This document shows positions 23,059 to 36,352 of a stretch of DNA of 64,000 nucleotides, piece by piece. Under the pieces are notes generated by a model. It was not told the origin of the DNA. It made no database searches and saw nothing but the letters and a program-made list of their open reading frames with translations. This DNA is from Micromonospora sp. NBC_01813. Its GTDB lineage: Bacteria; Actinomycetota; Actinomycetes; Mycobacteriales; Micromonosporaceae. Numbering within the stretch: position 1 is the stretch's first letter; each line of letters opens with the position of its first letter. The DNA lies in contig NZ_CP109067.1 in NCBI RefSeq assembly GCF_035917335.1, positions 6,571,001 through 6,635,000 of the forward strand, written 5' to 3'. The position numbers and the translations under genes were made by a program.

Positions 23059-26000
23059 TTGCGGCAGAACAGTCGTCCCGCACGGGGGTGGGCGTTGCGT
23101 TACCTGCGTTTCAACAGTGTGCCCAGAGATCGCGACCAGCGTCCCGGTCGGTCCGGGCGTGGCCCCTTCTTCTCCCGTTCGTTCCCCATCGGAGGCACGG
23201 CGTTCCGGTCGGTCCTGGCAGTCTCGTTGGCCAGCATCATGCTGGTCAACCTGGGTGGCAACGGAGTGGATCGCGCTGCGGCGGCCCGGCACCAGCAGGC
23301 TGCGGACCGACCGCACGTGGCGGCGGACAAGCCGGGTCAACGCTGGGGCAGCGCCGACGGCGGCAGCCATCTCACCCGTCCGGCGGTCAATCGGAATCTG
23401 CCGCAGACCTACCGCGGCCAGTACCCGCTGCACCAGTTCGACGGCGTCGCGGAGCCTGCGGACAACCAGGCCCGGGTGGTCGAACCACCGGCCGTCGAAG
23501 CGCGCGGATTCGATGAGGCGACCAGCCGGGAGCGTACGGCGGAACGAGGCCGTCACCAGCGGACCTTCGACAACGCGGACGGCACCCGGACCACCGAACT
23601 CTCTGCCGACCCGGTCCACTACGAACTGCCGGACGGCGGCTGGGCGCCGATCGACACCGACCTGGTCGCCGCCGACGCAGGCGCGGGCGGCGGTTGGCGC
23701 AACGCCTCCGACGCGGTCGATCTGCGGCTGGCACCGCACGCCGGCGCGGCGGACCTGGTCCGGATCGCGCTCGACGACCAGCATTCCATCGAGTACGGCC
23801 TGGCCGGTGCCGCCGAAGTGGCCGGCGATCACGCTGCCGAGGCGGCCGGCGACCAGGCTGCCGCTGCCGGTGTCACCTACCGCGACGTGCTGCCGCACGT
23901 GGACGTGCGGTTGGCGGCCCGGCCCGGCGGGGTCAAGGAGACCCTGGTCCTGCACTCGGTCGACGCCCCGCACACGTTCCGCTTCCCGCTGCGGCTACCC
24001 GGACTCACCGTACGGCTCGTCGACGGCGAGGTGCGCTTCGTCGACGACTCCGGGGTGGTCCGGGCGGTCATCCCGCCCGGCTACATGTTCGACACCGGAG
24101 CCGGTGAGCAGGGGCCGGCGACCTCGACCGGGGTTCGCTACCGCCTGACCGGCACCGACACCCGGCCGGTCCTGGAGATGACCCTCGACTCGACGTGGCT
24201 GCGCGACCCGGCCCGGGCCTACCCGGTCGAGGTCGATCCGACCGTCGGCCCGCCGGTCACCGAGCGGGCGAGCACGTCCAGCATGTACGTGCACGGCGGC
24301 ACATCGGTCTCCGGCGGCGAGGAGCTGCTGATCGGCCGCAGCGGCAGCGCCAACGCCGCCGCGTACCTGAAGTTCGACAACCTGCAGAGCCAACTGGCCA
24401 ACCACACCATCCACGGTGTGGCGATGACGGTGGTCAGCTACGACGCCCCGTCCTGCCGGCCGAGGCCGGTGGCCGTACACCCGGTCACCGCCAGCTGGTC
24501 CGGCTCCGGCGGCTATTCCTGGCCGGGACCGGCCGTCGGCAAGGCCCTGGCAAGTAAGTCGTTCGCCCACGGGTACCTCGCCACCGGCCAGTCCCAGTCT
24601 GCCTGCCCGGCTGCCTCGGAGCTGTTCGACCTGGGCGTCGCCGGCCGTGACCTGGTGCAGCGCTGGGTCAACGGGACCCAGGCCAACCACGGGCTCTCGC
24701 TGCGGGCACCGGTCAACGACGGCTCGGCGTGGAAGAAGTTCGCCGGCACGAACACCCCGAACGGCCCCCGGTTGTACGTGACGCACAGCCCGTACAACGC
24801 CGGTTATGCCATCCCCAATCCGGTGCCGGAACCGGCGGTCCTGCAGAACCGGGACGGCCAGGTCGACGTCACGGTGACAAACAAGAGCGCCGAGGCGTGG
24901 ACCCCGGCCAACTACTACCTGGCGTACCGGGCGTACAACGCCGAAACCGGCGCGGCGGTCACCCAGCAGCGGGCCGCGAACCTGCCCGGCACGGTGGCCC
25001 GCAACGGCAAGGCCACGGTGGCGGCGACGATCAAGCGGCTGCCACCCGGGGTGTACTTCCTCGACTTCACGATGGTGCGCACCGGCGGGGTGGTCTTCAC
25101 CGACCACCAGGTGCCGCCGGCCCGGATCGTGCTGCACGTCATCGACGTCGCACCGGTGGTCCAGGAGGTGCACCCGCCCAACGGCTACCCGGCGCCGACG
25201 TTGACCCCGCTGCTGTACGCCCGCGTCGTCGACCCGGACGCGCCGCCGAGCCTGAGCCTGCAGTACAAGTTCGAACTCTGCGACAGCAACGACGCCGGCG
25301 AGCCGGTCGACTGCACCAGTACGGCGTACCAGGCCAGCCAGGCGTGGGCGGTGCCGGCCGGGCGGCTGGTGTGGAGCAAGTCGTACGTGTGGCGGGCCAT
25401 CATCCGCGACGCCAACAACGAGGTGCCGACGCCGTACTCGACGCTGGTCACCTCGGTGCCGCAGCCGGACATCACCTCGAAGATCGCCGGAGCGCCGAAC
25501 GCCGCCGTCGGGCAGGAGTACGACGCCCAGACCGGCAACCTGACCACGGCCGCCGTCGACGCGGTGGTGGCCGCCGTCGGCCCCGAGCTGAACGTGGTCC
25601 GTACGTACAACAGCCTCGACCCGCGGCGTGACCTCGGCGCCGACGCGACCGGCCTGGCCGCCGTACCGCCGGTCTTCGGGGCCGGCTGGGCCAGCCGCTA
25701 CGACATGCGGATGGTGCCCGACGACGACGGCACCGGCAACGTCGTCGCGGTCTACCCGGACGGCCAGACGGTCCGCTTCGGCCGCAACCCCGACGGCAGC
25801 TACGCGGCACCGCTGGGCCGGGTCGCCGAGCTGACCCTGGACGCCACCTACTGGCGGCTGCGTGACCAGTCCGGCACCACGTACGTGTTCGCCCGCTCCA
25901 CCGGCAAGGTCACCGAGATCGTCGACAACGCGTCGCGGCGGCTGCGGTTCACCTACAACAGCGCCGACGGCGGCCGGCTGTCGCGGGTGCAGGCGGCGGC

Positions 26001-29000
26001 GACCCCGTCGGACACCACCGGCCGGTCACTGTGGTTCGTCTGGAACGGCAACCGGATCGCCACGGTACGCACCGACCCGGTCAACGGCTCACCGCTGTCC
26101 TGGCACTACCACTACACCGGTGACCTGCTGACCCGCGTCTGCGCGCAGGACACCTCCTGCACCGAGTACGAGTACACCGCCGCGTCGCGCTACCACGCCG
26201 CGACGATGGACGCCCGTCCCGACTCGTACTGGCGGTTCGCCGAAAGCCAGGGCACCGCCGCCGGCAGTGAGATCGCCGTCAACCTGGGCAAGGACGCCGG
26301 CACGTACACCGGGGTCACCCTCGGCGCCGCGGGCCCGATCGCCGGTACGGCCGACACCGCCGCGTCGTTCAACGGCACATCGGCCCGGGTCACGCTGCCC
26401 AAGGGGGCGGTCAAGAAGAGCCGGGACGCCTCGATCGAGCTGTGGTTCCGCGTCGGACTGACCCAGACCGGTGGGCCGCTGATCGGCTACCAGGACACCG
26501 AGTTCGGCACCACCGCCGGCACCGGCGTACCGCTGCTCTACACCGGCACCAACGGCCGACTCTATGGCCAGTTCGCCGGTGGTGGCATCGACCCGATCGT
26601 CTCGACCGCCACCGTCAACAACAACCAGTGGCACCACGTGGTGCTCACCTCGATGGGCACCACCCAGACCCTCTACCTCGACGGAGAGTGGGTCGGCGAG
26701 GTCACCGGCCGCACCATCGACCACGCGCTGTTGACGTACAACCAGGTTGGTGCCGCCGTCGCGACCAGCCCGACCGCCTGGCCCAACTGGGGTCCGACGG
26801 CGCAGCGGCACTTCGCCGGGCAGATCGACGAGGTCGCCATCTACGCCCGGCCGCTCGGGCCTGGCACCGTGGAAGAGCACTTCCGCGCCGCGCAGGCCGG
26901 CAGCCACCGGCTGACCAGCGTCCTGCTGCCCAGCGGCAAGACCGCCATCGAGGCCGACTACCACGAGACCACCGGCCGGATCACCGAGTACACCGACGGC
27001 AACGGCGGCACCTGGAAGATCGGTGCCCCGGCCGTCTTCGGCAGCGACCGAGACCTGCGCCGCAGCGTGCAGGTGCTGGACCCGGCGAACCGGCCGCATC
27101 TGTACGAGTACGACGCGCTCGCCGGCCGGCTGCTGCGCAGCGGCACCCCGCTCGGTTTGGAGACCCGCCAGGAGGACCTGCCCGGCCCGCCGCCGACCTC
27201 GTCGCCGTCCCCGCCGACCGAGGTGTGCAGCCAACCGGACCCGAACGACCCGGCGTTCTGCACCATCATCCCCGACGACTCCGGCGGCCCGGTCTTCATC
27301 CGGCATCCGCTGGAAGGCATGGCGATCCGCACCTACACCTACGACCTGCAAGGCCGGCAGAAGCAGATCCGGGACGAGAACGACCACGGCGTCGAGCTCA
27401 AGTACGACGACCGGGGCAACGTCATCTCCCGCAAGAGCTGCCGCAGCAGCACCGAGTGCTACACCACCTACTACAGCTACCCGGCGACCATCACCAACCC
27501 GTACGACCCACGGGCCGGCCTGGCCACCGAGGTGCGCGACGGACGCTCCACCAGCGCCACCGACAACCGGTACCGCACCACGTCCAGCTACCACTTCACC
27601 GGGCAGCTGATCAGCCAGACCGGCCCGGACAACATCACCGTCACCCACCAGTACACCAACGGGGCCGAGCCGGCGTTCGGCGGCGGCAACCAGCCGACCG
27701 GTCTGCTGGACCGCACCATCACCGGCGGGCGCACCACCCGCTACTTCTACTACCGCAACGGTGACCTGGCGCGCACCGTCGACCCGGCCGGGCTGACCAC
27801 CGAGTACACCTACGACCCGCTCGGCCGGCTGGCGACCGAGAAGGAAACCTCCGACAGCTTCCCGGCCGGCGTGGTCACCACGTACACCTGGGACGCCCAC
27901 TCGCGGCTCAAGAGCGAAACCGGCCCGGTGACCACCGACGCGGTCAGCGGCGAACAGCACCAGCAGCACGCCGTCAACGACTACGACGTCGACGGCAACA
28001 TCATCGCCACCACCGTCTACGACCTGGTCGGCGACGACGAGCCACGGACCGGGACGACGGAGTACGACGAGCACAACCGCCCGGTCCGGGTGGTCGACGC
28101 CGAAGGCAACGAGACGAGCCTGTCCTACGACCGGTTCGGCAACAAGACCTCCGAAACCGACGCCAACGGCAACCGGTACGACTACGCCTACACCAACCAG
28201 AACAAACTAGCCGAGGTACGGCTGCGCAACTGGCACAGCGACCCGCCGGGTGGATCAGGCACCGGCGACGTCGACTACCTGGTGCTGCACTCCTACTCGT
28301 ACGACTTCGCCGGCCGGCTGGCCAGCGACACCGACGCGATGGGCCGCCGGCTGGAGTACTTCTACTACCACGACGACCTGCTGGAAAAGGTGGTCCAGAA
28401 AGGGTTCCGCAACCCCGACGGATCCACCCGCGACCAGGTGATCGAACGCAACGTCTACGACGGGGCCGGCAACCTGGTCCGCCGGGAAGAAGGCAACGGC
28501 ACCACGGTCACCGAACATACCCTGGACAACGCCGGCCGGGTCACGACCACCATCGAAGACCCGGGCGGCGTACGGCGCCGCACCGACCTGCGTTACAACA
28601 CCGCCGGCGAGGTCGACCGGATCACCCGCTCCGGCAACACGTCGAACGTGCCCTGGCTGGTCGCCGCCGACACCGAGATCGTCAACTACCTCTACCACGT
28701 CTCCGGTGACGTGTCCCGGGAGACGGTGGTCGCCGGTGCCGCCAGCCGGGTCACCACCCACACGTACGACCAGCGGGGTGTCCGCACCTCGACCGTCGAG
28801 CCGCGCGGCAACGTCGCCGGCGCCGACCCGGCGGCCTTCACCACCCGGTTCACCACCGACGAACTCGGCCGGCAGACCCGGGTCACCGGCCCGGCGGTGG
28901 CCGCCGAAAGCGGCGGCGACACCCCGACGACGGTCAACCCGACCGTCACCGCCGGCTACAACGCCTTCGGCGAGCAGATCGCGACCCGTGACCCGCTCGG

Positions 29001-32000
29001 CAACGTCACCCGCACCGAGTACGACCTGCTCGGCCGACCGGTGCGGACCATTGCCCCGACCTACACCCCGCCGGGCGCGCCGACACCGATCACCCCGACC
29101 ATGCGGACCAGCTACGACCCGCTGGGCAACGTGACCGAGACGGTCGACGCCCGCAACATGGTCACCCGGTTCGAATACGACCAGCTCAACCGGATGGTCA
29201 CCCGGGACGCCCCGGGCACCACCAACGAGCAGCGGGCGATCTGGCGCTACACGTACACCCGCACCGGTGAGGTGCTGTCGGTCACCGACCCGACCGGGGC
29301 CCGGACCGAGTCCACCTACGACGACCTGGACCGGCCGGTCACCCAGACCCGGGTCGAACGGCAGCCGGTCGTCGACAACTTCACCACCCAGCTGCGCTAC
29401 GACGACGCCGGCAACGTGACGTCGGTCGTCTCGCCGTCCGGGGCGACCATGACCAGCGCGTACAACGGGGTCGGCGAACCGATCCGGATGACGTCCCCGG
29501 CCGGGGTGGTCACCCAGTACGGCTACGACCGGGCCGGGCGGCAGGTCCGGGTCGCAGACGGGCTCGGCCGCACCGCGCGGACCAGCTACAACCTGTTCGG
29601 CGACCGGGTCGCCGAGGCCAGCCTGGACCCGGCCGGTGACGTCGTCGCGACCACCAGCTACGGCTACGACGCGGCCGGCAACGTCGTCACCGTCACCGAC
29701 CCCGAGCAGGCCGTCTCGCAGTACGCGTACGACGCGGCCGGTCGGCTGGTCAGCCAGGTCGAGCAGGTCTCCGCGACGAAGTCGATCACCACCACCTTCG
29801 GCTACGACGCGGCCGGCAACCGCACCCGCTACACCGACGGGCGCGGCCACGAGATCATCTACACGGTCAACGCGCTCGGCCTGGCCGAGTCGGTCATCGA
29901 ACCGCCGACCACGGCACACCCCGATCTGACCGACCGGACCTGGACGGTCGCCTACGACGGCAACGGCAACGCCCAGCGGCTGATCGCCCCCGGAGGAGTG
30001 ACCCGGCAGCGGGTGTACGACGCGGCGAACCGGCTCGTCGAGGAGACCGGATCCGGCGCGGAGACGACCACCGCCGCCCGCAGCCTCGGCTACGACCTGG
30101 CCGGCCGGCTCACCCGGGCCAACGCGCCCGGCGGCGACAACACGTTCACCTACAACGACCGGGGTGGCCTGCTCACCGCGGCCGGACCGGCCGGCGCGGC
30201 CAACTTCAGCTACGACGCCGACGGCAACCTGACCAGCCGGACCGACGCCGCCGGCACCGCGACGTTCAGCTACGACGACGGCCGGCTCGACGAGATCACC
30301 GACGCGGTCACCGGCCAGCCGCAGACGCTGCAGTACGACGCGGCCGGTGCGGTACGCGGCATCGACTACGGCGCTGGCCGGGTTCGCGCCTTCAGCTACG
30401 ACGACGTCGGTCGGCTCACCGGTGACCTGCTGCGCAACTCGGCCGGGCAGACCGTCGCCTCGATCGGCTACGGCTACGACAGCAACGGCCAACTGACCAG
30501 CAAGACCACCACCGGCACCGCCGGGGCGGGCGCGCACACCTACGACTACGACGACGCCGGGCGGCTGATCAGCTGGACCGGGCCGGACGGCACCGTCGCC
30601 TACGAGTGGGACGACGCCGGCAACCGGACCCGCGCCGGCCCGAAGACCGCCGTCTACGACGAGCGCAACCGGCTGGTCTCCGACGGCGACTACACGTACG
30701 GCTACAGCGCCCGTGGCTCGGCGCGCACCCGGGTCAGCTCCGGCCTGGTCGAGCAGTACGCCTTCGACGCCTTCGACCGGATGACGTTCGCCGAGGGCGA
30801 GTCGTACGCGTACGACGCCCTCAACCGGGTCGTCTCGCGGGGCAGCACCGCGTTCGGGTACGCCGGGCTGAGCGCGGAGGTCGTCAGCGACGGCACCGAA
30901 ACCTACGCCCGGGGCCCGGGTGACGAACTGCTCGCCGTCGGCAACGGCACCGAGCAGCGGCTGACCCTGGCCGACGCGCACGGCGACGTGGTCGCCGCCT
31001 TCGACCCCACCAACGGCACCTTGCCGTCACTGCCGGACTCGGTGGCCTTCGACCCGTTCGGCGAGCCGACCGCGTCGCAGGGCGACACCGGCAACATCGG
31101 CTACCAGGGCGACTGGACCGACCCGGACACCGGCAAGGTCAACATGGGTGCCCGCTGGTACACCCCCGGCACCGGCAGCTTCGCCTCCCGCGACAGCGTC
31201 ACCTACAGCGCGGGCGCGTCGGTCCTGGCCAACCGCTACACGTACGCCGCCGGAGCGCCGCTGAACTACGACGACCCGACCGGCCACTGGCCGAGCTGGG
31301 TCGACAAGAAGGTCAACCAGGCGAAGCAGAGCATCTCCAACGCCTGGAACTCGACCAAGAGCTGGGCCAGCTCCACCTGGAACACGGCCAAGAGCTACGC
31401 CTCGGCGACGTGGAACTGGGGCGTCTCGGCACTGCGTACCTTCGGCAACCAGCTGAAGCGCGCCGCCAACTGGGTCTACCACAAGTCGGGCGCGGCCACC
31501 GTCGTCAACAAGGCGCGCGAAAGCGTTCAGTCAGCCCGGGACTGGGCCGCCGAACAGGTCGAGAAAGCGGTGCAGGTCACCGAACGCGCCAAGCAGGCTG
31601 TCGAGACTTTCGTCAAGACCCAGGTCGTCCCGAGGGTCAAAGCAGCCGTACAGCCGCTGGTGGCCGGCGTCAAAACGCTGGTGTCGACGACGGCGAAGGT
31701 GGCGGCGGCCGTCACCTCGCTCACCGTCACGGCCATCAAGGACCCGCAGAAGTTCGCCAACACGCTGGCGTTGGAGGCGGCGAAGCACTACCAAGGTCTG
31801 ACCGAGTCGATCAACGGCATGGTCGACAACGCGGTCCAGTTCTGGGACGAACACAAGGCGACCATCACCGGCGCGGTCGTCGGCGGTGTCCTCGGCATCG
31901 GCTGCGGGCTGGCCATCGGCTGGACCGGCGTCGGCGCTGTCGCCTGCGGGGTGGCTGCCGGCGCGATCGGTGCCGCGGTCACCGGCTACATGCAGGGCCA

Positions 32001-33123
32001 GCGGGGCTGGGACCTGGCCGGCACCGCGCTGCTCGGCGGTGCGACCGGCGTACTCGGTGCCTTCGGCGGGGCGGTGCTCGGCTCGGCGGCGCGGGTCGCC
32101 GCACCGGCGCTGCGCGCGCTCGGCGGCCGAGCGGTGGGCGCGCTCTCCAGCGGCGCCCAGAGCGCGGTACGCGGTGCCGTCAGCAGCACCAGGTCGGCAG
32201 TGCGCTCCGGGGTCGAGAGCACCCGCAACCTGGCCAACCGGCTGGCGGGCGGGTGCAAGAACAGTTTCGTCGCGGCGACCCCGGTGCTGATGGCCGACGG
32301 CAGCAGTAAGCCGATCAGCGACGTCGAGGTGGGCGACGTCGTGCTGGCCACCGACCCGACCACCGGCCGTACCGAGGCGGAGGAAGTCACCGCGCTGATC
32401 GTCGGTACGGGCGAGAAGAACCTGGTCGAGGTGACCGTCGACCTGGACGGTGCCGACGGTGACCAGACCGGCACGATCACCGCGACCGACAACCATCCGT
32501 TCTGGGTGGAGAGCATCAATCGCTGGGTCGACGCGGCCGACCTGAAGCCCGGCTACGCCTTCGAAACGGCCGACCACCGGCCGGCCACGGTCGCCGGCAT
32601 CCGCACCTGGACCGAGTACGAGACGGTCCACAACCTCACCGTCGACACCCTCCACACGTACTATGTGATCGCCGGCGACAAGCCGTTGCTGGTTCACAAC
32701 TGCGGTTCCGGAAACGCAGAAGCGACACTTGCGTCAAGTGGGACGGGGACATCAGGGGGTGCATTTCGATCTAGTGTGCCTTTCCGTGCTGACGGGCAAA
32801 CGGTTCTCCATGGTCACGGGAGACCGTCGGGCGGCACCTTCGTTATTCCAGAAGGTACGTCAGTGGCCTTTTATGGCGAGCACGGTTACACGATCACCGC
32901 TACACAGGGAATGCGGATCTCGGGAGGGGGTCCGAAACCGATTCGAGTTCACGGTCCCGGTGAGGAGATCTCCGACTACTTCCTCGAACCACTTGGTCCG
33001 GGTTTCACGTTCCGCGACGGGTCTACGGTTGTCGAAAGGCCGACGCTGCTTAGTGAACTTCTTCAGCCCAATATGGGTACATGTCACTGGGCCGCCTGTC
33101 GAGGCTCAAGAAGTCCCCGCTGA
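23059..33123 (+). CDS. Giant secreted RHS/YD protein with Hint and C-terminal effector domain
   Basis: The protein has up to 3,354 residues. A signal helix lies at about 50-75. A DNRLRE-like region (about 395-575) precedes a DUF6531-like RHS start (about 815-910). Many YD repeats then form the shell, with a LamG/concanavalin-like insert at about 1045-1285. The core motif NRYTYAAGAPLNYDDPTG is at about 2720-2740. A long amphipathic helix and hydrophobic glycine-rich segments follow (about 2750-3060). A Hint domain runs from Cys3066 to HN-Cys3215, so cleavage after Asn3214 would free the last 140 residues. These contain HGHG (3251-3254), HGPGEEISDY and HWAACRG (Cys3347). The start is uncertain: TTG at 23059 has no ribosome site and later GTG codons are possible. 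Delivery of the tip to a target cell is inferred from RHS biology. Confidence 0.88.
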   Translation: MRQNSRPARGWALRYLRFNSVPRDRDQRPGRSGRGPFFSRSFPIGGTAFRSVLAVSLASIMLVNLGGNGVDRAAAARHQQAADRPHVAADKPGQRWGSADGGSHLTRPAVNRNLPQTYRGQYPLHQFDGVAEPADNQARVVEPPAVEARGFDEATSRERTAERGRHQRTFDNADGTRTTELSADPVHYELPDGGWAPIDTDLVAADAGAGGGWRNASDAVDLRLAPHAGAADLVRIALDDQHSIEYGLAGAAEVAGDHAAEAAGDQAAAAGVTYRDVLPHVDVRLAARPGGVKETLVLHSVDAPHTFRFPLRLPGLTVRLVDGEVRFVDDSGVVRAVIPPGYMFDTGAGEQGPATSTGVRYRLTGTDTRPVLEMTLDSTWLRDPARAYPVEVDPTVGPPVTERASTSSMYVHGGTSVSGGEELLIGRSGSANAAAYLKFDNLQSQLANHTIHGVAMTVVSYDAPSCRPRPVAVHPVTASWSGSGGYSWPGPAVGKALASKSFAHGYLATGQSQSACPAASELFDLGVAGRDLVQRWVNGTQANHGLSLRAPVNDGSAWKKFAGTNTPNGPRLYVTHSPYNAGYAIPNPVPEPAVLQNRDGQVDVTVTNKSAEAWTPANYYLAYRAYNAETGAAVTQQRAANLPGTVARNGKATVAATIKRLPPGVYFLDFTMVRTGGVVFTDHQVPPARIVLHVIDVAPVVQEVHPPNGYPAPTLTPLLYARVVDPDAPPSLSLQYKFELCDSNDAGEPVDCTSTAYQASQAWAVPAGRLVWSKSYVWRAIIRDANNEVPTPYSTLVTSVPQPDITSKIAGAPNAAVGQEYDAQTGNLTTAAVDAVVAAVGPELNVVRTYNSLDPRRDLGADATGLAAVPPVFGAGWASRYDMRMVPDDDGTGNVVAVYPDGQTVRFGRNPDGSYAAPLGRVAELTLDATYWRLRDQSGTTYVFARSTGKVTEIVDNASRRLRFTYNSADGGRLSRVQAAATPSDTTGRSLWFVWNGNRIATVRTDPVNGSPLSWHYHYTGDLLTRVCAQDTSCTEYEYTAASRYHAATMDARPDSYWRFAESQGTAAGSEIAVNLGKDAGTYTGVTLGAAGPIAGTADTAASFNGTSARVTLPKGAVKKSRDASIELWFRVGLTQTGGPLIGYQDTEFGTTAGTGVPLLYTGTNGRLYGQFAGGGIDPIVSTATVNNNQWHHVVLTSMGTTQTLYLDGEWVGEVTGRTIDHALLTYNQVGAAVATSPTAWPNWGPTAQRHFAGQIDEVAIYARPLGPGTVEEHFRAAQAGSHRLTSVLLPSGKTAIEADYHETTGRITEYTDGNGGTWKIGAPAVFGSDRDLRRSVQVLDPANRPHLYEYDALAGRLLRSGTPLGLETRQEDLPGPPPTSSPSPPTEVCSQPDPNDPAFCTIIPDDSGGPVFIRHPLEGMAIRTYTYDLQGRQKQIRDENDHGVELKYDDRGNVISRKSCRSSTECYTTYYSYPATITNPYDPRAGLATEVRDGRSTSATDNRYRTTSSYHFTGQLISQTGPDNITVTHQYTNGAEPAFGGGNQPTGLLDRTITGGRTTRYFYYRNGDLARTVDPAGLTTEYTYDPLGRLATEKETSDSFPAGVVTTYTWDAHSRLKSETGPVTTDAVSGEQHQQHAVNDYDVDGNIIATTVYDLVGDDEPRTGTTEYDEHNRPVRVVDAEGNETSLSYDRFGNKTSETDANGNRYDYAYTNQNKLAEVRLRNWHSDPPGGSGTGDVDYLVLHSYSYDFAGRLASDTDAMGRRLEYFYYHDDLLEKVVQKGFRNPDGSTRDQVIERNVYDGAGNLVRREEGNGTTVTEHTLDNAGRVTTTIEDPGGVRRRTDLRYNTAGEVDRITRSGNTSNVPWLVAADTEIVNYLYHVSGDVSRETVVAGAASRVTTHTYDQRGVRTSTVEPRGNVAGADPAAFTTRFTTDELGRQTRVTGPAVAAESGGDTPTTVNPTVTAGYNAFGEQIATRDPLGNVTRTEYDLLGRPVRTIAPTYTPPGAPTPITPTMRTSYDPLGNVTETVDARNMVTRFEYDQLNRMVTRDAPGTTNEQRAIWRYTYTRTGEVLSVTDPTGARTESTYDDLDRPVTQTRVERQPVVDNFTTQLRYDDAGNVTSVVSPSGATMTSAYNGVGEPIRMTSPAGVVTQYGYDRAGRQVRVADGLGRTARTSYNLFGDRVAEASLDPAGDVVATTSYGYDAAGNVVTVTDPEQAVSQYAYDAAGRLVSQVEQVSATKSITTTFGYDAAGNRTRYTDGRGHEIIYTVNALGLAESVIEPPTTAHPDLTDRTWTVAYDGNGNAQRLIAPGGVTRQRVYDAANRLVEETGSGAETTTAARSLGYDLAGRLTRANAPGGDNTFTYNDRGGLLTAAGPAGAANFSYDADGNLTSRTDAAGTATFSYDDGRLDEITDAVTGQPQTLQYDAAGAVRGIDYGAGRVRAFSYDDVGRLTGDLLRNSAGQTVASIGYGYDSNGQLTSKTTTGTAGAGAHTYDYDDAGRLISWTGPDGTVAYEWDDAGNRTRAGPKTAVYDERNRLVSDGDYTYGYSARGSARTRVSSGLVEQYAFDAFDRMTFAEGESYAYDALNRVVSRGSTAFGYAGLSAEVVSDGTETYARGPGDELLAVGNGTEQRLTLADAHGDVVAAFDPTNGTLPSLPDSVAFDPFGEPTASQGDTGNIGYQGDWTDPDTGKVNMGARWYTPGTGSFASRDSVTYSAGASVLANRYTYAAGAPLNYDDPTGHWPSWVDKKVNQAKQSISNAWNSTKSWASSTWNTAKSYASATWNWGVSALRTFGNQLKRAANWVYHKSGAATVVNKARESVQSARDWAAEQVEKAVQVTERAKQAVETFVKTQVVPRVKAAVQPLVAGVKTLVSTTAKVAAAVTSLTVTAIKDPQKFANTLALEAAKHYQGLTESINGMVDNAVQFWDEHKATITGAVVGGVLGIGCGLAIGWTGVGAVACGVAAGAIGAAVTGYMQGQRGWDLAGTALLGGATGVLGAFGGAVLGSAARVAAPALRALGGRAVGALSSGAQSAVRGAVSSTRSAVRSGVESTRNLANRLAGGCKNSFVAATPVLMADGSSKPISDVEVGDVVLATDPTTGRTEAEEVTALIVGTGEKNLVEVTVDLDGADGDQTGTITATDNHPFWVESINRWVDAADLKPGYAFETADHRPATVAGIRTWTEYETVHNLTVDTLHTYYVIAGDKPLLVHNCGSGNAEATLASSGTGTSGGAFRSSVPFRADGQTVLHGHGRPSGGTFVIPEGTSVAFYGEHGYTITATQGMRISGGGPKPIRVHGPGEEISDYFLEPLGPGFTFRDGSTVVERPTLLSELLQPNMGTCHWAACRGSRSPR

Positions 33124-33206
33124 CATAAACCGGCCGGACCCGACGGTTCAATTCCTTCAAAGTTGCGCTCGCGTCGACCGCCAAGAAGACCAATCAGGAA
33201 GGTGAA

Positions 33207-33842
33207 GTGGAATATTTAGATCTTTCGCCTTACGAGTATCTGGCCTCTCCGATTCCGATGCGTTCGCTTGGCTGGCTGGGCCGCGGAAACGGAAACCAGG
33301 CTGAAGGCAGGACCGTGATGACCGATATCGATATTGAGAACTTCTGTGCCGCTTCTTCGCGTGTGGCGAACCTAACTCTCGGCTTCCATGAGTGCGAATT
33401 TTGCCCCCCGGAATCCGCTTTTCGGGGCAATGGCGAATACCATTATTACTTGAGTGGTGGCGACGTTTTTGCTGCACCGGTCATGATTCTGCATTACCTT
33501 CAAGAACATGACTACCGCTTGCCCGAAGAATTTCGGGAAGGGTGGGATGCTACTGCGACGCTATTCTGGGATGGCAGGGCTGAGCGCTTGTGTGAAGTAT
33601 TGGCGGATGACTCCCAGGACGCCGACTTTCGATGCCTGGCCATAACTGACCTGCCGCACTGGCGAGACTATCGGGCGTTTCGGGCTCTAGCGCTCGCGAT
33701 TCAAGATGAGGAACTCGTCGAGACCGTCGGGTACGAAATAGGCCGATCCCTTACGGCATATATGTCTTGTGACTTCGCCGCCGAATTCAACCCTTCCAAC
33801 TTGCCGGACATCGTCAAGTTTGGGATGGGGCTGATTCCATAG
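33207..33842 (+). CDS. Putative cognate immunity protein of the RHS effector
   Basis: The protein has 211 residues from GTG at 33207 (GGAAGG upstream). It is acidic and has no signal peptide, so it is cytoplasmic. Landmarks are YLDLSPYEYL, GFHECEFC (a CxxC-type pair), NGEYHYY and VMILHYLQEHDYRLPEEF. Similar HxCEFC-bearing proteins accompany polymorphic toxins, from memory. It begins 83 bp after the RHS stop and is visibly poorer in GC than the rest of the window, as is the RHS tip, suggesting both were exchanged as a cassette. The immunity role rests on position. Confidence 0.65.
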   Translation: MEYLDLSPYEYLASPIPMRSLGWLGRGNGNQAEGRTVMTDIDIENFCAASSRVANLTLGFHECEFCPPESAFRGNGEYHYYLSGGDVFAAPVMILHYLQEHDYRLPEEFREGWDATATLFWDGRAERLCEVLADDSQDADFRCLAITDLPHWRDYRAFRALALAIQDEELVETVGYEIGRSLTAYMSCDFAAEFNPSNLPDIVKFGMGLIP

Positions 33843-33982
33843 TGCTGCAGGAAAAGGAAGGGGTCTGCCTCGGCAGCTAAAGCAAAGTGTAGCCTTGACT
33901 ACTTGATTCCGCCGGTTGTCATCCGGTTGGCATCTGCCGATGTTTGTCGGCGCCAATGTTGTTGAAGCGGGGAGGATGAGCG

Positions 33983-36352
33983 ATGGGTATCGCACTAGGT
34001 CAGGATTCAGTTGGTCAGAAACGATGGAGAATTGCGCGGTCGGCGGTGGCTGCGCTGCTGGTCGCCGTAGGGCTTTCGGTGGTGCAGCCGGGTGGGGTGG
34101 CGTACGCGGACGTGGCCGGCAAGGGCGGTGACTACGTACCGTTCGCCTCGCCGGGTTCGCTGCTGGACACCCGTACGGGGGCCGGGGGCATCACCGGACC
34201 GCGGCCCGGCGGAAGCACCACGACGTTCCAGGCGCTCGGTGTCGGCGGGATCCCCGCCTCCGGGGTCAGCGCGGTGCTGATCGACGTGGACGCGATCAGC
34301 CCGTCAGTATCGACGTACCTCACGGTCTGGCCAGACGGGGAGCCTCGACCGGCGCTGTCGATGCTCAACGCCGCAGCCAACGAACGGCTGTCCAACTCGG
34401 TTGTCGTCAAGGTGGGGTCGACCGGGCGGCTGTCCGTCTACAACCAGAGCGGCAACGTGCACATTGCCGTGGACGTGCAGGGCTACTTCACCAACAATGC
34501 GGGCGGTGCGGGCGGCGGGTTCGTGCCGACCGCCCACACCCGACTCGTTGACACCCGTAGCGGGCTCGGCTCGCCAACCAGTGCCATCCCGGCTCGGGGC
34601 AGCCGCACCTTCACCCTGACCGGCGGCGTGGTGCCCAGCGGAGCGGCGGGAGTCTTCCTCGACATCATTGTGGTCAACGCCGCCAGTTCGGGTTACCTGT
34701 TGGCCTTTCCGCCCGGCGGGACGAGCCACCGTAGCCTGATCGAGTATCCGGCGGGCACCACGTCCCACGGTGGTTCGGTGGCGCTGCCCAGCAGCGGCCA
34801 GGTGACCATCCGCAATCCCAACACGCACGCGGTGGATCTGGCCCTGACCGCCCAGGGCTACTTCACCGGCAGCTCCAGCACCGGTGCGGGGCTGCGTGCC
34901 GTCACCGGAAACCGGTTGTTGGACACCAGACACAACGGTGGCGCGCCGATCCCGGCCAACGGGTACGTCGACGTGCAGTTCGGCGGCACCAACGGTCTCC
35001 CGACCCGGGGTATCGCCGCAGTGGCGCTGAACCTCACCGTGCTCAACCCGTCGGCGGGTGGCTACCTGCGGGTCTGGCCGGTGGACGGCACTCAGCCGTC
35101 GCCGTCGGTGCTGAACTACGCGACTGCCCAGTCCCGAGCCAGTCTGGCGATTTCCCAGGTCGGTACCGAAGGGAAGGTACGGATCCGCAACTACGGCAGC
35201 GGCACCGTGCATCTCCTGGTTGATCTGCAGGGATGGTTCGCGGACCCGCTGCCGTCCGTGTCGATCCAGCCGTACTCGAAGACGGCGGTGCAGCAGCTGA
35301 CGCCGACCGGAACCAGCCTCGGATCTGTCGAGTACGCCTACGTCGACAACCTGGGCAGTGTCCGACTCGGCCGGCAGACGAGCGTCGACGACTACAACTC
35401 GGTGCAGTGGACCACCGTCTCCGGGCTGGAAGCGTTCGTCGGGCCGGTATCGCTCGGCCAGGCGTCGGATGGTCGGGTGCAGGCAGTCGCGCAGCACACC
35501 GACAGCAACATCTGGTCGATCAGCCAGACTGAGCCCAACCAGCCTGGCTGGGCGGCGTGGGCGCAGCTGGGCGGCTCGATGGCGGCGCCACCGACCGTCG
35601 CGAAGGTCGCTGACGGCACACTGGTCAACTTCGGGGTGGACGCCGACGGGCGGCTGTGGCACTACCGCCAGACCGGCACCAGCCCGGCGTGGCGCAGCCT
35701 CGGCCTGGCCGATCTGACCGGGTCGGTGACGGTCGTGCCGGCGCAGAACGGCCTGCGGCTGCTCGCCTCCGCCGTGGACGGCAGCGTCAAGACCGCTGTC
35801 TACGGCAACGACGGCACGTTGTCCGGCTGGACCACAGCCGGTGGCTCGGTGACGCCGGGCACCATCGCCGCGGTGGTGATTCCGGGCTACCGCACAAGGC
35901 TGGTCGTGCGCGCTACCGACGGGACTGTCGTGGAGAAGCTGCAGGAGCTGAACGGTTCGTGGCCGGCGAACTGGTCGCCGGTCGGCTCGTTCACCTCGCC
36001 CGGGGCACCGGCGGTGATTCTCGACCCCGCTCTGGGCCGGACCGTGGTCGTCGCCCGGGGCGCCGACAACGAGATCTACCGGGTCTTCGAGACCGGTCCC
36101 GGCACGAACGCGTGGGGTGACTGGGCGATGGTCAGCGACTGGGGATCGGATCCGGCGGCGACCGATCCGACCGTGGCACCGGTGACCAACTCCAGCGGTC
36201 AGACCTTCGTCATCGTGTTCCGCAACCTCAACCAGGCCACCCGCGTCTACGAGCGGCAGAACGTCTCTGGAGTGGGTCGCGGGCAGGACGGCGAGTCGGC
36301 GGCGTCGCAGGTGTCGTTTGAGGCCAACACCCTGCCGGCACCGCCGGACTGA
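33983..36352 (+). CDS. Secreted protein: three cell-surface repeats plus propeller-like lectin domain
   Basis: The protein has 789 residues. After a signal peptide (about 1-43), three repeats of about 125 residues carry LLDTRTG / LVDTRSG / LLDTRHN starts, a middle GYL..WP strand and end in VDVQGYF or similar (about 45-420). The second half (about 430-770) has repeating W-containing beta units (WTTVSGL, WSISQTEPN, GRLWHYRQTG, WGDWAMVSDWG) like PLL or fucose-lectin propellers. It probably binds glycans on surfaces; that is inference. It starts 141 bp past the immunity-like gene with GGGGAGGA before the ATG. Confidence 0.72.
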   Translation: MGIALGQDSVGQKRWRIARSAVAALLVAVGLSVVQPGGVAYADVAGKGGDYVPFASPGSLLDTRTGAGGITGPRPGGSTTTFQALGVGGIPASGVSAVLIDVDAISPSVSTYLTVWPDGEPRPALSMLNAAANERLSNSVVVKVGSTGRLSVYNQSGNVHIAVDVQGYFTNNAGGAGGGFVPTAHTRLVDTRSGLGSPTSAIPARGSRTFTLTGGVVPSGAAGVFLDIIVVNAASSGYLLAFPPGGTSHRSLIEYPAGTTSHGGSVALPSSGQVTIRNPNTHAVDLALTAQGYFTGSSSTGAGLRAVTGNRLLDTRHNGGAPIPANGYVDVQFGGTNGLPTRGIAAVALNLTVLNPSAGGYLRVWPVDGTQPSPSVLNYATAQSRASLAISQVGTEGKVRIRNYGSGTVHLLVDLQGWFADPLPSVSIQPYSKTAVQQLTPTGTSLGSVEYAYVDNLGSVRLGRQTSVDDYNSVQWTTVSGLEAFVGPVSLGQASDGRVQAVAQHTDSNIWSISQTEPNQPGWAAWAQLGGSMAAPPTVAKVADGTLVNFGVDADGRLWHYRQTGTSPAWRSLGLADLTGSVTVVPAQNGLRLLASAVDGSVKTAVYGNDGTLSGWTTAGGSVTPGTIAAVVIPGYRTRLVVRATDGTVVEKLQELNGSWPANWSPVGSFTSPGAPAVILDPALGRTVVVARGADNEIYRVFETGPGTNAWGDWAMVSDWGSDPAATDPTVAPVTNSSGQTFVIVFRNLNQATRVYERQNVSGVGRGQDGESAASQVSFEANTLPAPPD

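Follow-up and report, generated by a model that had tools for sequence, protein, structure and literature searches.

An Stv-family tip of a Micromonospora RHS protein is exchanged together with a DUF7919 gene and is a candidate toxin

Toxin–immunity cassettes of the polymorphic kind are already known: in the RHS/Hint systems, as Zhang et al. (2012; PMC3482391) describe them, a carrier protein bears a Hint domain as the releasing domain and a swappable C-terminal toxin, and an immunity gene completes the set. The locus analysed here, in a window of 64,000 nucleotides (the whole stretch of DNA examined) from Micromonospora sp. NBC_01813, shares the carrier, the Hint domain, the swappable tip and a candidate immunity gene, and the word Stv, the Pfam name of its tip domain, occurs 0 times in that paper. 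The same paper describes Tox-Caspase domains, which resemble the tip in their His and Cys and, in some proteins, actinobacterial ones included, in their C-terminal toxin place, but differ from it in position of the His and in fold as predicted here. Cpe1, a papain-like cysteine protease toxin with an immunity protein, is tied to T6SS and CDI delivery (PMC12136450); like Cpe1, the Stv tip is predicted to act between bacteria as a Cys-His toxin that an immunity protein counters, whereas the papain-like fold, Cys-His-Asp triad, six-stranded sheet and five helices of Cpe1 set that toxin apart, and in Stv the His comes first and the Cys last, with almost nothing after the Cys in some members. The eCIS-associated toxins with DUF4157 (PMC8213781) are approached by two Stv proteins, from a Streptomyces californicus plasmid (L006) and from Kitasatospora sp. 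MAA19 (L013), in which an eCIS core domain and Stv are fused in one protein, whereas the Stv domain of the window is carried by an RHS protein; an eCIS core search of the source genome gave no match, nor did the controls of that search. In the largely subscription-free literature searched, we found nothing on PF21527, PF25535, DUF7919 or ‘putative adhesin Stv’, recognised no bacterial protein called Stv among the titles listed, encountered ‘HWAAC’ and ‘GHG motif’ 0 times in the 6 papers listed for them, and did not find Stv in print as a toxin with a DUF7919 partner.

The carrier combines 14 RHS_repeat stretches with DUF6531, Laminin_G_3, PT-HINT and Stv matches (profile scan) and is thus, as read from its domains, a large RHS protein with a releasing domain ahead of a C-terminal tip. 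The features of the locus are as follows.

23059..33123, + strand: RHS protein of the polymorphic-toxin type, an ORF of 3354 aa with a TTG start
32293..32700, + strand: PT-HINT domain, residues 3079-3214 (profile match), ending His-Asn right before Cys3215
32701..33120, + strand: C-terminal tip, residues 3215-3354, 140 residues (translation, Stv profile)
32797..33102, + strand: Stv domain PF21527, residues 3247-3348 (Pfam profile match)
32815..32817, + strand: codon of His3253 (GHG), kept in 20/20 Stv domains
33085..33087, + strand: codon of His3343 (HxAxC), kept in 20/20 Stv domains, Ala in a distant one (L018)
33097..33099, + strand: codon of Cys3347, kept in 20/20 Stv domains and in L018
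33207..33842, + strand: DUF7919 (PF25535) gene, 211 aa, GTG start, probable immunity gene (E 7e-23; adjacency)
32703..34027, + strand: exchange unit, tip plus DUF7919 gene (dissimilar DNA in a congener, L103, between homologous flanks)

The original prediction, made from the letters of the DNA, had placed a 140-residue tip behind a Hint domain ending HN-Cys3215, and both the translation, in which the Cys3215 codon of LLVHNC begins at 32701, and the PT-HINT match agree with this layout; release of the tip through self-cleavage of PT-HINT is presumed. Its mention of a family called Stv was also borne out, since the tip clearly belongs to Pfam Stv, with an E value of 2.5e-19 and a score of 70.6 bits against a curated cut-off of 24.2, above chance. 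The tip was without match in PHROGs and PADLOC, phage records held no match to it or to another Stv locus (L010), and two scans of viral_contigs yielded no confirmed match.

Evidence on the nature of this locus comes from a same-genus genome (G006), where an orthologous RHS gene (locus L103) has 91% protein identity across the 301 residues that precede the tip. Its DNA is 88.4% identical to the window up to 32702, the end of Hint, where the likeness breaks off, and resumes at 34028 with 79.1% identity to the end of the L103 locus; window positions 32703-34027 have no BLAST match in L103, which holds another tip and another next frame between the homologous flanks, and a search of G006 with the Stv profile gave no match. 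Tip and next gene have been swapped together while the carriers around them stayed homologous, as seen in this one congener, and we read the pair as polymorphic toxin and immunity gene because this exchange is the one expected of such a cassette. Base composition differs as well: in 300-base windows, G+C is 54-58% over most of 32703-34027, while the DNA ahead of it has 65-80% and the DNA behind it 66-70%. The alternative tip of L103 contains TCFHYC and is followed by its own next frame. In the window, the ORF after the cassette (33983-36352, 789 aa) has a start that reads like a signal peptide, and neither Pfam nor NCBIfam gave a match for it at E 10.

The gene behind the tip matches PF25535 well above the curated cut-off (81.6 bits over 27), and 12 of 22 distinct Stv loci have a DUF7919 gene behind Stv in the same orientation (the window, L005, L007, L009, L010, L011, L012, L020, L021, L022, L023 and L029), making it a recurrent candidate immunity gene. 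The pairing reaches an Oceanospirillaceae MAG (L011), where DUF7919 scores 34.7 against a Pfam cut-off of 27, and L007, where Stv is its own 145-residue frame and not an RHS tip. This count omits L018 (distant) and H3 (a plasmid match from Streptomyces sp. M54) and takes repeats once (L001=L007=L057, L002=L009=L037, L008=L014=L019, L010=L015, L011=L017, L013=L016, L003=window, L020=L048, L021=L043, L022=L041). In the source genome Stv and DUF7919 each match once, and the two matches are the neighbours described here. Across 354 genomes of the same bacterial family, the coordinates place a DUF7919 match no more than 0.5 kb behind 8 of 16 Stv matches, in the same orientation, and since these genomes hold about 0.2 DUF7919 per genome (72 matches at E 0.001, 69 above cut-off), we infer from the counts that this adjacency lies far beyond chance. 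DUF7919 is nonetheless not specific to Stv, being 4.5 times commoner in the family (72 vs 16) with most copies elsewhere. We looked by eye for other toxin tips ahead of solitary DUF7919 genes and saw no clear tip upstream in 25 loci (L033-L062, 30 loci minus 5 Stv loci, out of the 72 matches). The DUF7919 protein of the window extends some 100 residues beyond the domain match and, over 26 residues, weakly resembles PHROG 14562, a family of unknown function (E 0.0021); in the DUF7919 search, the control Bacillus subtilis gave a match below cut-off.

The remaining 10 of the 22 loci have no DUF7919 in the flank (about 1.5 kb in genome-search loci, about 4 kb in others). In L024-L026 a different shared gene takes its place: a gene whose product of about 300 aa contains a CRCPGD motif (1824-2759 in L024, 555-1493 on the minus strand in L025, 1839-2753 in L026) stands behind three related Stv tips, has no Pfam match in L025 and L026, and is possibly a second immunity family. 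The next frame in L008 and L028 starts like a secreted protein, with neither DUF7919 nor the L024-L026 gene in the flank, and in the flank of L030 neither these nor anything else was recognised downstream; L004 is a fragment, and in L006, L013 and L027, where no DUF7919 was found in the flank, Stv is not RHS-borne. On sequence grounds DUF7919 is the likely immunity gene of the Stv tip, and for the cassette and its DUF7919 pairing, taken by themselves, our confidence is high.

Which residues matter was addressed with an alignment (A5) of 20 Stv domains, trimmed to start 8 residues ahead of GHG and omitting L004 (fragment), L012 (partial) and L018 (distant). All 20 match Pfam Stv (the window domain with 71.7 bits in that scan), their mean pairwise identity is 38%, and eight columns are invariant: Gly3252, His3253, Pro3264, Gly3266, Leu3331, His3343, Ala3345 and Cys3347. 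The motifs singled out in the original prediction, VLHGHG (His3251, His3253) and MGTCHWAACRG (Cys3347), are all in the translation at the spacing given (3347-3253 = 94); of their residues, His3253 and Cys3347 are invariant (20/20), so this His-Cys pair is a family signature, while His3251 is not conserved. The pattern ‘HG then AC[RQ]’ holds in its order, in the Gly directly after His3253 (19/20) and in the Cys (20/20), but Arg follows the Cys in only 14/20, so that the resemblance to ‘ACRG’ does not extend to the family as a whole; GTCHW keeps its first Cys in 11/20. A second invariant His, His3343, lies four residues before Cys3347 and had gone unremarked. The diverged domain of L018, a 341-aa frame (1078-2103) outside any RHS protein, scores 40.3 bits against the Pfam profile, above cut-off (profile positions 2-120), but is weak against our local profile (14.0 bits, positions 21-85 only); it retains GHG and a Cys at the matching end, with Ala four before that Cys. 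As this distant domain keeps His and Cys without the second His, the pair first proposed is favoured as the essential one, on one partly matched sequence.

The same pair had been taken as a possible sign of a caspase/CHAT-like protease (clan CD), a view that could be extended to a permuted or reduced form. The GHG and AAC motifs do stand in the right order, the C14 profile matches at GHG (17 columns, P-value 0.0013, probability 18.6), and actinobacteria have the caspase-like toxin tips mentioned above (PMC3482391). Over both motifs, hhalign gave 0.7 with CHAT and no more than this 17-column match with C14, as against 68.3 over 100 columns for CHAT with C14 and 0.3 for an unrelated set. Neither of the two predicted models has a caspase or CHAT structure among its Foldseek rows; the AlphaFold2 model of a relative (pTM 0.79) has a mostly-beta alpha+beta layout with two short helices only, which departs from the caspase-hemoglobinase fold, and its best match in a PDB fold search was no better than E 7. 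In the caspase-hemoglobinase fold a stretch of the domain (strands 1-2) precedes the catalytic His. His3253, by comparison, is residue 7 of the Pfam Stv match, which begins six residues ahead of it, whereas 13 of 16 CHAT matches reach their HG after 128-162 residues and 14 of 15 C14 matches after 71-82 (HG taken as motif, catalysis not proven in each; 16 of 20 fetched CHAT loci and 15 of 19 C14 loci, the lowest-scoring omitted). Many Stv loci have 143-386 residues between the last DPxG-type motif and GHG, so that room is not lacking everywhere, but L010 and L011 have just 15 and 13 residues between DPxGL and GHG, and the Stv match spans 102 aa against 240-313 for CHAT and 215-268 for C14. Fold, His position and profile comparison thus all speak against a caspase/CHAT-type protease, which we regard as very improbable. 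Sequence searches of solved structures reached best E values of 0.42 (single sequence), 0.51 (8-sequence profile) and 0.041 (20-sequence profile); the last search also gave three ubiquitin-type chains (E 0.48-1.3, similar register), a likeness taken as chance because ubiquitin is in no Foldseek row of either model.

On the reading we prefer, the RHS protein would carry the tip to a neighbouring cell, Hint would cut after Asn3214 and free the 140 residues, and the Stv domain, with a mostly-beta fold other than that of caspases, would work in the target cell as a small enzyme using Cys3347 and His3253, perhaps with His3343, while the downstream DUF7919 protein would protect the producer. That the tip serves as the toxin in an exchangeable RHS toxin–immunity cassette, an Stv Cys-His enzyme against which DUF7919 protects, seems to us somewhat the better bet; for Cys-His catalysis itself, judged from conserved residues, the chances appear even. 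The main rivals assign the three invariant residues differently. In a metal-dependent enzyme, His3253, His3343 and Cys3347 would be zinc ligands and no thiol dyad would exist, which would account for the invariance of all three (20/20), the third being superfluous for a simple dyad. Residues four apart in a beta strand are separated by roughly 13 angstroms, and both models place His3343 and Cys3347 within one continuous strand, a predicted arrangement awkward for a single metal; with the second His also absent from L018, we think metal dependence unlikely. A metal-independent nuclease would instead use His3253 and His3343 as an acid-base pair, with the Cys structural; RHS toxins often carry nuclease tips, and the two invariant His, one towards each end of the domain, would suit such an enzyme. 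This reading leaves the invariant Cys unexplained, however, and meets the same loss of the second His in L018; the PDB fold rows of the models (35 and 6) name no nuclease either, and we consider the reading improbable.

Few of the genomes searched carry Stv: it occurs in 3 of 61 relatives' genomes, in 1 of 396 genomes drawn from the phylum (the source genome itself), in 14 of the 354 genomes of the bacterial family, and in 2 of 369 genomes from the class of the Oceanospirillaceae MAG, that MAG being one of the two. A genome_contigs scan with one peptide pattern gave 7 Stv loci and the plasmid set 3 records. Two Pseudoalteromonas plasmid matches (H5, H6), which covered no more than 51% and 41% of the query, were dropped: with the local Stv profile L031 scored 7.3 bits and L032 was not listed. 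Among viral proteins in BFVD, uncharacterised proteins of Indivirus (A0A1V0SD77) and Klosneuvirus (A0A1V0SLK3) match the first tip model with probability 1.00 and 0.94 (E 3.6e-3 and 0.15), the better of them with a TMq of 0.54 and an rmsd of 12.2. One broader idea, which we offer as speculative and rather doubtful, is that Stv is a new minimal Cys-His enzyme fold of about 100 residues, serving as a weapon of unrelated delivery machines, with DUF7919 as immunity in RHS proteins and without DUF7919 in eCIS-type effectors, and possibly found in giant-virus proteins too.

The Pfam entry PF21527, which all A5 domains match, is named as an adhesin, while here it stands in the setting of a toxin tip. 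An adhesive role has only that label in its favour; the C-terminal place behind Hint, the exchange together with a neighbour gene, the fusion to an eCIS core domain elsewhere and the invariant His and Cys residues all tell against it, making it extremely unlikely. A family labelled ‘adhesin’ thus appears to be a toxin family with DUF7919 as a candidate immunity family, and for that reason the label would mislead. The invariant His-His-Cys set and the absence of a PDB fold match in these searches recommend Stv for a first structure determination and activity assay; should it prove enzymatic, the toxins of RHS and eCIS-type carriers would include one more small enzyme of the thiol or metal kind.
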